The translations under genes and the position numbers were made by a program. The notes beneath the pieces were generated by a model. That model saw only the letters and a program-made list of their open reading frames with translations, did not search any database and was not told the origin of the DNA. 64,000 nucleotides of DNA from Treponema sp. (lineage in GTDB: Bacteria > Spirochaetota > Spirochaetia > Treponematales > Treponemataceae), in NCBI GenBank assembly GCA_024698325.1, contig JAILRG010000103.1:1-64000 (forward strand), in the 5' to 3' direction. The stretch's first letter is position 1. Each line of letters begins with the position of its first letter. Shown in pieces: positions 51,427 to 53,928 of the stretch.

Positions 51427-52215
51427 ATGAATCCGATTTCTAATTTTCACACGCATACGTATTTGTGTAAGCATGCTGCAGGTCATCCTGCAGATTATCA
51501 TAAACAGGCGCTTCTAGACGGCTGCACTGCGCTCGGTTTTTCTGACCATTGCCCGTACCCGGACGCGATGCCCGATTTCTGGCCCCATGTCCGCATGTCG
51601 CTTGAGGAAGCGCCCGGCTATGTCCGCGAGGTGCAGGCCCTGAAAGCGTCTTCGCCCTTTCCTGTGTATCTCGGTTTTGAATGCGAATGGGACAGCCGGT
51701 ATGCAAGCTGGTATCAGGATGGCTTAAAGGGCGAGTTCGGCGCGGACTATCTTGTTCTTGGCTCTCACTGGCTTACAAAAGGGGATTCTCATCTCTATAT
51801 CGCGGACGAAATGGAAAAAGCGTCGCTTTTTACCTATACCGACCAGACAATTCAGGCGATGCAGTCCGGGCTGTTTGCCTTCCTTGCGCATCCTGACCTC
51901 TGCATGGCGTTCGGACGCGCCTGGGATGCCGATGTGGAATCCTGCATGAAAGCGCTTATTGCCTGTGCGAAAGATTTGAACATGCCGATTGAGGTGAACG
52001 GGCTTGGCATGCACAAAAAAATGTGCCAGACCGAAAGAGGCATGCGCTATGCCTATCCTGTTGACGAATTCTGGACGCTGGCGGCAGAGGCGGGGGTGCC
52101 TGTCATCTGTAATGCGGATGCTCACGACCCGAAGATTGTTATGGCATGGGCTAAGGAATCCCGGGAGTATGCCGCCCGCTTTGGTATCGTGCCGGTAGAG
52201 TCAATTTTTGCCTGA
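51427..52215 (+). CDS. PHP-domain histidinol-phosphatase
   Basis: NFHTHTYLCKHAAGHPADYHKQALLDGCTALGFSDHCPYP, HPDLCMAFGR, CNADAHDPK. Confidence 0.92.
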   Translation: MNPISNFHTHTYLCKHAAGHPADYHKQALLDGCTALGFSDHCPYPDAMPDFWPHVRMSLEEAPGYVREVQALKASSPFPVYLGFECEWDSRYASWYQDGLKGEFGADYLVLGSHWLTKGDSHLYIADEMEKASLFTYTDQTIQAMQSGLFAFLAHPDLCMAFGRAWDADVESCMKALIACAKDLNMPIEVNGLGMHKKMCQTERGMRYAYPVDEFWTLAAEAGVPVICNADAHDPKIVMAWAKESREYAARFGIVPVESIFA

Positions 52216-52269
52216 TTTCTTCAGCTGCCAGTGAACCGCAAAAAAAGTGAAGAAAAAAACAAAAACATA

Positions 52270-52299
52270 TTGACTAAGTAGGTAATATGCTGGTATATT
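52270..52299 (+). promoter_or_regulatory. Extended -10 promoter of the metY leader
   Basis: TTGACT (52270-52275), 18 bp, TGG-TATATT (52294-52299). Confidence 0.7.
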
Positions 52300-52312
52300 C
52301 AGCACATAAACA

Positions 52313-52331
52313 ACCTACTTGTTGGGTAGGT
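52313..52331. promoter_or_regulatory. Inverted repeat operator candidate
   Basis: ACCTAC-TTGTTGG-GTAGGT; the half-site gtaggtaat also sits between -35 and -10. Confidence 0.5.
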
Positions 52332-52346
52332 ATTAAAAAGCTGTAA

Positions 52347-52454
52347 GGAGGCATGATAAAAATTACGTCCGTGTAATTTTTATCATTTGCAGATTTTGCC
52401 GTTGGCAAAACTGCGATTCCCTGCCTCCATGCAAGGCCGCTAAAGCGGTTTTTA
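52347..52454 (+). promoter_or_regulatory. Structured 5' leader of metY with three-way-junction-like fold and terminator-like hairpin
   Basis: P1 GGAGGCA/TGCCTCC (52347-52353/52422-52428); P2 ATGATAAAAATTAC-gtccgt-GTAATTTTTATCAT (52353-52386); P3 GCAGaTTTTGCC-gtt-GGCAAAACTGC (52389-52414); then CCGC-taaa-GCGG-TTTTT (52437-52453). Confidence 0.75.
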
Positions 52455-52469
52455 TCAAGGAGGCGCAGA

Positions 52470-52544
52470 ATGATACTTTACTTTGAAAAGCTTGTCCGTG
52501 AAAATTTCCGCAACGGACTCATGCGCCGCTGTTGTCTCTGCTAG
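52470..52544 (+). CDS. Cys-rich leader peptide MILYFEKLVRENFRNGLMRRCCLC
   Basis: aaggagg SD 6 nt upstream; 24 codons ending Arg-Arg-Cys-Cys-Leu-Cys; 100 nt upstream of the cysteine/homocysteine synthesis gene. Confidence 0.75.
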   Translation: MILYFEKLVRENFRNGLMRRCCLC

Positions 52545-52644
52545 GCTGAAAGTCCTTCAGTCTTCAACCTTTACTAAAAACAAATATCTCATATCAATTT
52601 TATAACATGGGGAAAGGTATGCCCCAAAAAGAGGAGACAGCACT

Positions 52645-53928
52645 ATGGCACAGTACAAATTTGAAACATTGCAGTTACATGTAGGACAGGAATCAGCAGA
52701 CCCGGCGACAGACGCCCGCGCGGTTCCGATTTATCAGACGACATCGTACGTTTTTCATAATTCAAAGCATGCGGCAGACCGCTTCGGGCTGGCAGATGCA
52801 GGAAACATCTACGGCCGTCTTACAAACTCAACGCAGGATGTGTTTGAAAAGCGCATTGCCGCACTCGAGGGTGGAAGCGCGGCGCTGGCAGTGGCTTCTG
52901 GAGCCGCAGCCATCACTTACACGATTCAGGCGCTGGCAGCGAACGGTGGCCACATTGTAGCCCAGAAGACAATCTACGGCGGCAGCTACAACCTTTTGGC
53001 TCATACGCTTCCGCAGTACGGCATTACAACGACATTTGTGAATGCGCACGACCTGAAAGAGGTGGAAGGCGCCATTAAGGAAAATACCCGTGCCATCTAC
53101 CTTGAGACGCTCGGAAACCCGAATAGTGATATTCCCGACATTGATGAGATTGCAAAGATTGCCCACAAGCACGGGCTTCCGCTCGTCATTGACAACACGT
53201 TTGGAACGCCGTATCTGATTCGTCCAATCGAGCATGGAGCGGACATTGTCGTTCATTCTGCGACAAAATTCCTGGGCGGTCACGGAACGACGCTGGGCGG
53301 CGTCATTGTAGAAAGCGGTAAATTCGACTGGAAGGCAAGCGGAAAATACGCAAATATTGCAGCTCCCAATCCCAGCTACCATGGAATTTCATTCTACGAT
53401 GCGGTAGGACCTGCTGCTTTTGTAACCTACATCCGCGCAATCCTGCTCCGGGACACAGGCGCTACGATTTCTCCGTTCAATGCGTTCCTGCTGCTGCAGG
53501 GCGTGGAGACGCTTTCGCTCAGACTTGACCGCCACGCAGAGAATACGAAAAAGGTGGTTGAATTCCTGAAAAAGCATCCTAAGGTTGCAAAAGTGAATCA
53601 TCCGTCTCTTCCTGAGCATCCGGATCATGCGCTGTATCAGAAATACTTCCCGCAGGGCGGCGGTTCAATCTTTACATTCGAGATTAAAGGCGGCAGGGAG
53701 GAAGCATGGGCATTCATCGACAACCTGCAGATTTTCAGCCTGCTTGCAAATGTTGCAGACGTAAAATCACTGGTGATTCATCCTGCAAGCACAACCCACA
53801 GCCAGCTGAATGATGCGGAGCTTGCAGAGCAGGGAATCTCTCAGAGCACAATCCGCCTGTCCATTGGTACCGAGCATATTGATGACATCATTGCTGACCT
53901 GGAGAGAGGCTTCGCTGCAATAAAGTAG
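52645..53928 (+). CDS. metY: O-acetylhomoserine aminocarboxypropyltransferase / cysteine synthase
   Basis: FETLQLHVGQESADPATDARAVPIYQTTSYVF, VVHSATKFLGGHGTTLGG; gaggag RBS. Confidence 0.95.
   Translation: MAQYKFETLQLHVGQESADPATDARAVPIYQTTSYVFHNSKHAADRFGLADAGNIYGRLTNSTQDVFEKRIAALEGGSAALAVASGAAAITYTIQALAANGGHIVAQKTIYGGSYNLLAHTLPQYGITTTFVNAHDLKEVEGAIKENTRAIYLETLGNPNSDIPDIDEIAKIAHKHGLPLVIDNTFGTPYLIRPIEHGADIVVHSATKFLGGHGTTLGGVIVESGKFDWKASGKYANIAAPNPSYHGISFYDAVGPAAFVTYIRAILLRDTGATISPFNAFLLLQGVETLSLRLDRHAENTKKVVEFLKKHPKVAKVNHPSLPEHPDHALYQKYFPQGGGSIFTFEIKGGREEAWAFIDNLQIFSLLANVADVKSLVIHPASTTHSQLNDAELAEQGISQSTIRLSIGTEHIDDIIADLERGFAAIK

Follow-up and report, generated by a model that had tools for sequence, protein, structure and literature searches.

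A conserved leader peptide before metY and other sulfur genes of Treponema and Clostridia, and its probable role in hiding and revealing the next ribosome-binding site

Introduction

Which of the elements in front of metY in a Treponema sp. would control this gene, given that its leader carries strongly folded RNA as well as a short ORF with Cys codons near its end? The locus lies at 52270-52644 of the window, by which we mean the whole stretch of 64,000 nucleotides that was analyzed (contig JAILRG010000103.1). It is located upstream of metY (52645..53928, plus strand), which encodes an O-acetylhomoserine (thiol)-lyase and matches TIGR01326 with 633.9 bits against a cut-off of 495.1. An initial annotation, made from the sequence, had proposed a two-stage control of metY, whereby an upstream RNA switch or terminator is followed by Cys-dependent ribosome stalling in the ORF.

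Metabolite-dependent arrest peptides, e.g., TnaC, have conserved nascent residues and a fixed P-site codon, often with UGA as the next codon. From Actinobacteria, leader ORFs with runs of Cys codons are known, as well as the LEU element, where the Shine-Dalgarno (SD) sequence of the gene is base-paired with codons of the leader (PMC1262725).

The Leader ORF Encodes a Peptide Core Shared by Treponema and Clostridia

Promoter, helices, terminator-like hairpin, SD sequence, and ORF were all found at the coordinates given in the initial annotation. The leader ORF (52470..52544, plus strand) has 24 codons, reads MILYFEKLVRENFRNGLMRRCCLC up to its stop codon, which lies 100 nt before metY, and occurs as a single copy in the genome (HMM E 1.5e-13). 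As had been annotated, it is preceded by a SD sequence, AAGGAGG (52457..52463, plus strand), whereby the adjoining GGCGCA (52462-52467) pairs with TGCGCC (52522-52527) in the minimum free energy (MFE) structure.

The annotation had drawn attention to the RRCCLC ending and had taken its conservation before other metY genes as decisive. An ORF is indeed conserved over two phyla, but the conserved part is the core F[E/Q]xLVRxNFRxGxM, followed by Cys or a stop in the genus and in many Clostridia, and not the Cys tail. A search of 81 usable same-genus metY upstream regions with the five-residue query F..L.R.N[FY] yielded an SD-led ORF with the core YFEKLVRENFRxGxM in 35 or so of them (37 by a looser count), whereas the peptide is missing from 44. 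Among the ORFs recovered in this way, G and M are invariant and E and K nearly so. An HMM built from 29 same-genus leader ORFs detected the peptide in 87 of 201 same-genus genomes and, phylum-wide, in 29 of 395, and a single genome can carry as many as four copies; weak, chance-like phylum matches with E above 1e-3 (G142, G458, G147, G367, and G392) were dropped. In a species-level genome collection, a degenerate DNA pattern retrieved at least 119 loci of Treponema or Clostridia; since this pattern demanded most core residues, the invariance of the core in the collection set is partly by construction. The 80 record titles among the matches listed all refer to Treponema, spirochaetes, or Clostridia/Bacillota. 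Loci L225-L264 were filed as Treponema or Clostridia by peptide and gene, and L227 belongs to the Treponemataceae, so that the Clostridia counts given below hold at least one stray row. Cultured carriers include T. saccharophilum DSM 2985, T. zioleckii kT3, T. porcinum, and Emergencia sp.

Among the matches listed, 84 of the 119 loci precede metY, and the other genes found after the leader are those for MetQ, MetN, a cystathionine synthase-like protein, amino-acid/cystine ABC transport, an amidohydrolase, and a methyltransferase-like protein. In several Treponema (L162, L168, L181, L198, and L248) the leader stands before a uroporphyrinogen decarboxylase/methylcobalamin-CoM-methyltransferase-like gene, a placement suggesting a role in sulfur metabolism or methyl transfer.

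Leu is encoded by all six of its codons and Arg by five to six of its six. Because synonymous codons vary freely while the amino acids do not, the ORF must be translated and under selection as a peptide. Conserved residues near the putative arrest site combined with free synonymous codons are also what is seen in arrest peptides, whereby stalling itself is a prediction here. No model in Pfam or NCBIfam matches the leader peptide, and a search of open-access papers for its core string was negative. The leader peptide is thus apparently an undescribed family that occurs in gut Treponema and Clostridia before sulfur genes.

The Upstream RNA Folds Belong to a Dispersed Repeat

The RNA fold at the window locus is very stable (MFE, z = -7.1 against shuffles) and had been described as a three-way-junction-like RNA with the helices P1 to P3, followed by a terminator-like hairpin. 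Our analysis assigns this region to a TD-2-related repeat copy of ~115 bp (52346..52462, plus strand), which consists of four serial hairpins and a terminal AGGAG and is inserted at the SD sequence of the leader ORF. P2 and P3 are present as near-perfect helices and correspond to the repeat hairpins H1 (52353..52386; 14 bp, loop GTCCGT; supported by the MFE structure and by compensatory changes among copies) and H2 (52388..52414; MFE and consensus fold). H3 (52419..52436; CCCTGC-CTCCAT-GCAAGG, with an anti-SD-like loop) supersedes P1, and H4 (52437..52453; CCGC-TAAA-GCGG plus TTTTT) is the supposed terminator; all four lie on the plus strand. An RNAalifold consensus of 21 aligned repeat copies gave four hairpins in series with 15 pairs backed by two-sided changes, and the variable pairs of H3 are altered on both sides in 3-9 of the 21 copies. 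The complementarity behind P1 (GGAGGCA/TGCCTCC) does exist and forms in the MFE structure, but there is no such helix across the copies. Since its 3' arm lies in the third hairpin of the repeat consensus, the three-way junction is unsupported and was rejected. The CCGC/GCGG-TTTTT sequence is likewise present, yet as a part of the repeat and not as a terminator of the metY leader; the string CCGCTAACGCGG-AG-TTTTTAT-AGGAG is seen again in other copies.

In a permissive Rfam scan, the region 52351-52436 matched TD-2 (RF03162) on the minus strand with 34.3 bits, which is below the gathering score of 48.7, whereas related copies in the genome exceed it, with 52.1 bits for one of the same subtype (G000:C45). 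The window copy shares with TD-2 a pair of minus-strand hairpins whose loops are of the AYGGAY type; it differs in being extended by the CCGC/GCGG hairpin and AGGAG, and in that the downstream gene reads in the opposite orientation. The TD-2 model has 33 matches in the genome at E up to 1, some of them in tandem; G000:C102:16374-16750 consists of four contiguous tandem units. With the repeat segment of the window as query, 22 genome matches were obtained, about 11-12 of them long or near full length, and related copies occur in 36 of 60 same-genus genomes. We inspected 37 copies from this genome and from others: in 35, a terminal AGGAG or close variant of it is followed at 2-16 nt by the start codon of a reading frame of at least 60 aa, an arrangement that none of the 37 has at the opposite end.

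By inspection, the genes that follow the copies are unrelated to each other and include cysS, a uracil permease gene (uraA), a zinc ABC gene (znuA), thrH, and genes for DAHP synthase, a fabV-like enoyl reductase, and others. Most orthologous metY leaders in the genus lack the repeat, and the empty site reads, for instance, GCTGTAAGGAGGTACAAAATG (G037) or AAAAGGAGGCGCAGAAATG (G015). Because the repeat is dispersed before unrelated genes, its folds are not specific to metY. The covariation that had been demanded for P1-P3 is thus present for P2 and P3, but as that of a dispersed repeat, and lacking for P1. The P1-P3 RNA together with the terminator-like hairpin is a repeat copy that landed by chance and is unrelated to the leader ORF. 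The case shows that a mobile repeat inside a SD sequence can pass for a riboswitch.

The annotation was correct in noting that a SAM-I core is lacking: no SAM-type riboswitch or T-box was found in 52200-52700, neither at the Rfam gathering score nor in a permissive scan. A T-box ~2 kb upstream of the leader at one locus (L199) was dismissed as unrelated. The literature search yielded no paper on TD-2 in Treponema and nothing relevant on repeats at SD sites in this genus. The repeat might be a SD-targeted insertion or a spreading RNA regulator; the CUCC loop of H3 is complementary to the SD sequence in the window copy and in the G000 copies L291-L305.

Leader Codons Are Complementary to the Downstream Ribosome-Binding Site

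The last Cys-Cys-Leu codons of the window ORF contain the strand UGUUGUCUCU (52530..52539, plus strand), which reads UGU-UGU-CUC-U and is complementary to the SD sequence of metY. In the MFE and centroid structures it pairs with 52633-52642, so that the ribosome-binding site (RBS) of metY, GGAGACAGCA (52633..52642, plus strand), is sequestered in the MFE fold. The fold from the leader to metY is weak at the window locus (z = -0.6).

In Clostridia, it is the NFRxG codons that pair with the downstream SD sequence (CGAAAGGAAAU), while CGAAUGUG pairs with a segment of the spacer. In swap tests, which leave shared ancestry in, cognate combinations of the Clostridia were more stable than swapped ones for the outer pairing (-8.40 vs -7.48 kcal/mol; p 1e-4) and for the inner helix (-10.19 vs -7.71; p < 5e-5), whereas the controls were not significant. 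The Asn codon AAT/AAC, moreover, matches A/G in the RBS (Fisher 0.0035). For Treponema, the same kind of test gave p = 0.0013 for the tail against the RBS of the ORF itself and a marginal p of 0.03 for the tail against the metY RBS. Leader codons that are complementary to the downstream SD sequence above chance, as in the LEU element, were therefore found in the Clostridia; at the window the pairing is read from the MFE structure.

The computed effect of a parked ribosome depends on its position. With a ribosome at the end of the ORF, the openness of the SD sequence would rise from 0.26 to 0.57 in Clostridia (p 4e-9) and from 0.36 to 0.50 in Treponema (p 2e-5), while a ribosome at the ORF start would barely raise it (0.28 and 0.38, respectively). 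For the window itself the calculated increase is from 0.40 to 0.48 only.

A further hairpin, AGGCTGAA-AGTCC-TTCAGTCT (52543..52563, plus strand), lies at the stop codon of the leader and has no T run after it. In 15 Treponema loci, a subset that was chosen for having the hairpin and includes the window, 93% of the cells are paired, and 4 pairs with 12 cells show two-sided changes; none of 500 shuffles was as high in cells and score. A terminator after the Treponema leader ORF was considered and rejected, the recurrent hairpin being covarying but mostly without a T run. Intrinsic terminators between leader ORF and gene at other loci were assessed by eye.

Conserved Operator-Like Sites Flank the metY Promoter

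The annotated promoter with an extended -10 is present, and we read it as a sigma-70-type promoter (52270..52299, plus strand) with the -35 element TTGACT, an 18-bp spacer, and the extended -10 element TGGTATATT, including TATATT. It is overlapped by an operator half-site, AGTAGGTA (52277..52284), whose pattern TTGACNNNRTAGGTA has its single genome occurrence in this metY promoter and recurs in 26 of the 37 same-genus metY leaders with the peptide, compared to 2.0 expected from shuffles. Directly 3' of the -10 element lies the palindrome ACCTACTTGTTGGGTAGGTA (52313..52332), of the type ACCTA-N5..11-TAGGT, which is Rrf2/CymR-like by resemblance and unique within the window (0.04 expected by chance); it is found in 34 of the 37 leaders, compared to 2.4 in shuffles. 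Together, palindrome and half-site flank the promoter. One or the other occurs in 36 of the 37 same-genus metY leaders with the peptide and 29 of the 44 without it, in 14 of 18 non-metY leader loci, and in 38 of 68 Clostridial loci, in each case far above shuffles.

A palindromic operator conserved at the promoter is also what characterizes the Rrf2/CymR regulon, and in Bacillus CymR acts together with CysK (PMC2940859). Directly after cysK and a JAMM-like gene, the genome carries an Rrf2 gene (L288, G000:C97:13377-13754), whose CysK-linked product is a probable candidate for a CymR-type regulator of the palindromic operators. The likeness to the control of cysteine genes in Bacillales (PMC2940859) thus comprises the operator position and the Rrf2 gene after cysK; it differs in that the operator is likened by eye only and the regulator is putative, from sequence.

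A Proposed Ribosome-Controlled Switch Around the Conserved Peptide

Our favored reading, which we hold with moderate confidence, is that the leader constitutes a ribosome-controlled switch around the conserved peptide, i.e., a translational attenuator of sulfur genes under an Rrf2-like operator, which probably hides and reveals the ribosome site of the next gene. Transcription would start at the promoter covered by the palindromic operator, with an Rrf2/CymR-like protein as the presumed regulator. The 3' portion of the leader ORF also serves as an anti-SD strand, formed by the N-F-R-x-G codons in Clostridia and by Cys-Cys-Leu in the window, and may thereby exert control. Once ribosomes have passed through the ORF and dissociated, the start site of the next gene would be sequestered; if a ribosome pauses while the invariant Met codon occupies its P site or a position close by, it would cover the anti-SD strand, and the sulfur gene would be translated, as the computed SD opening suggests. 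In most loci the codon faced by such a ribosome would be UGY (Cys) or UGA (stop). Since conservation over the two phyla extends beyond the RNA to the amino acids, we infer that pausing is aided by the nascent peptide; the availability of Met/Cys or a product, e.g., SAM, would be the likely signal.

More tentatively, F[E/Q]xLVRxNFRxGxM might be an undescribed ribosome arrest peptide common to Clostridia and Treponema. With Met-tRNA in the P site facing UGY/UGA, it would respond to a sulfur metabolite (Met, SAM, or Cys) and thereby control the translation of metY and of genes for methionine uptake. It would share with TnaC the conserved nascent-peptide residues that end at a fixed P-site codon, often with UGA next; the sequences are unrelated, and for the metY leader arrest is predicted from conservation, with a putative ligand. 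If the ribosome is arrested by the peptide itself, two phyla would share an arrest peptide that responds to sulfur.

A rather unlikely alternative is that the leader is a Cys-codon attenuator, in which a ribosome stalled at UGU-UGU, when Cys-tRNA is short, frees the metY start site and the N-terminal core is incidental. It would account for the frequent Cys codons of Treponema leaders (38 of 44 at the third and 30 of 44 at the fourth codon after Met, written as TGT as well as TGC), for the part that UGU-UGU takes in the anti-SD strand of the window, and for the extra Met/Cys-rich leader of 19 Clostridial loci, and it has a model in the Cys-codon leaders of Actinobacteria (PMC1262725). However, core and Met are constant while the tail varies in length and sequence, and part of the Treponema tail is constrained as the complement of the ORF's own RBS. 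The leader of T. saccharophilum ends in GLMRR (ATGCGCCGCTGA), where the window reads GLMRRCCLC (CGC CGC TGA vs CGC CGC TGT TGT), and G315 as well as many Clostridia stop right after GRM; a run of Cys codons is accordingly not conserved across these orthologues. Since the T. saccharophilum tail is without any Cys, Cys codons cannot be the whole mechanism. Translation-dependent control of the metY leader, as the initial annotation had foreseen, is supported, whereas its RNA-switch stage is unsupported, and Cys stalling as the general mechanism stays hypothetical.

Plain translational coupling, whereby the ORF would switch on the next gene without sensing anything and the peptide would be conserved only as a consequence of the pairing of the RNA, appears distinctly improbable. 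NFRF codons are inherently complementary to GAAAGGAA, and CGA and AUGUG are constrained at the nucleotide level in Clostridia; but FE.LVR lies outside the SD pairing and keeps its amino acids with free synonymous variation, and Treponema keeps the same amino acids despite a different RNA pairing. It is very unlikely that the ORF encodes a small trans-acting protein. Strong amino-acid conservation would be expected of such a protein, yet the ORF stands nearly always in cis before sulfur genes, with several copies in some genomes, its tail varies, and Pfam and NCBIfam hold no match. Least credible of all is a metabolite riboswitch with a three-way junction for metY at 52346-52462: the very stable fold and the covarying hairpins speak for it, but they belong to a repeat that also precedes cysS, uraA, znuA, thrH, a fabV-like gene, and other unrelated genes and that most metY leaders lack, and the junction-closing P1 gives way to a local hairpin.

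For the favored switch, the nearest precedents are the actinobacterial Cys-run leader ORFs and the LEU element. The LEU element of actinobacterial leuA (Seliverstov et al., 2005, PMC1262725) is alike in that regulatory leader codons pair with the SD sequence of a downstream biosynthetic gene. It occurs in other phyla and another pathway and has a run of Leu codons, whereas the metY leader has a conserved 14-residue core with one Met and optional Cys and is not known to form a pseudoknot. The Cys-codon leader peptides of mycobacteria and relatives (PMC1262725; Canestrari et al., 2020, as cited in PMC13236596) likewise carry Cys codons close to the end of a short ORF with sulfur genes downstream; here, in contrast, the ORF is led by a SD sequence, the tail may lack Cys, and the N-terminal core is conserved across two phyla. 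With the favored switch, gut Clostridia and Treponema would have in common a way of controlling methionine synthesis and uptake for which Rfam, Pfam, and NCBIfam hold no model, and cultured carriers such as T. saccharophilum DSM 2985 make leader control testable.

Codons After the Core, First Leader ORFs, and MetY Relationships

Among the 72 rows filed as Clostridia, the codon after Met is Cys in 41, UGA in 18, and UGG in none, i.e., Cys or a UGA stop in 59 of 72; in the window it is CGC (Arg) and not UGN. Before the core Met, 70 of 72 Clostridial leaders have CGA, although elsewhere in these ORFs the choice of Arg codon is free; this preference would reflect either a slow codon or a constraint on the RNA.

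In 19 Clostridial loci (L159, L170, L185, L188, L196, L219, and 13 others), a Met/Cys-rich first leader ORF, e.g., beginning with MKKQNTITTTMMMEMCMWTQLMCMTCCAYLSDVLS, lies upstream of the conserved leader and is mostly followed by a hairpin and a T run. Such an ORF, standing in tandem with the conserved leader, is probably a Met/Cys attenuator, and its composition fits sulfur control. Because this T-run-followed first leader precedes the conserved one, the two-stage idea applies in another form in these loci.

In an unrooted tree, the Treponema MetY is placed among Clostridial MetY lineages, which makes a transfer between gut phyla plausible. The MetY of T. saccharophilum groups with that of the window in a four-row clade and is among its three nearest relatives.
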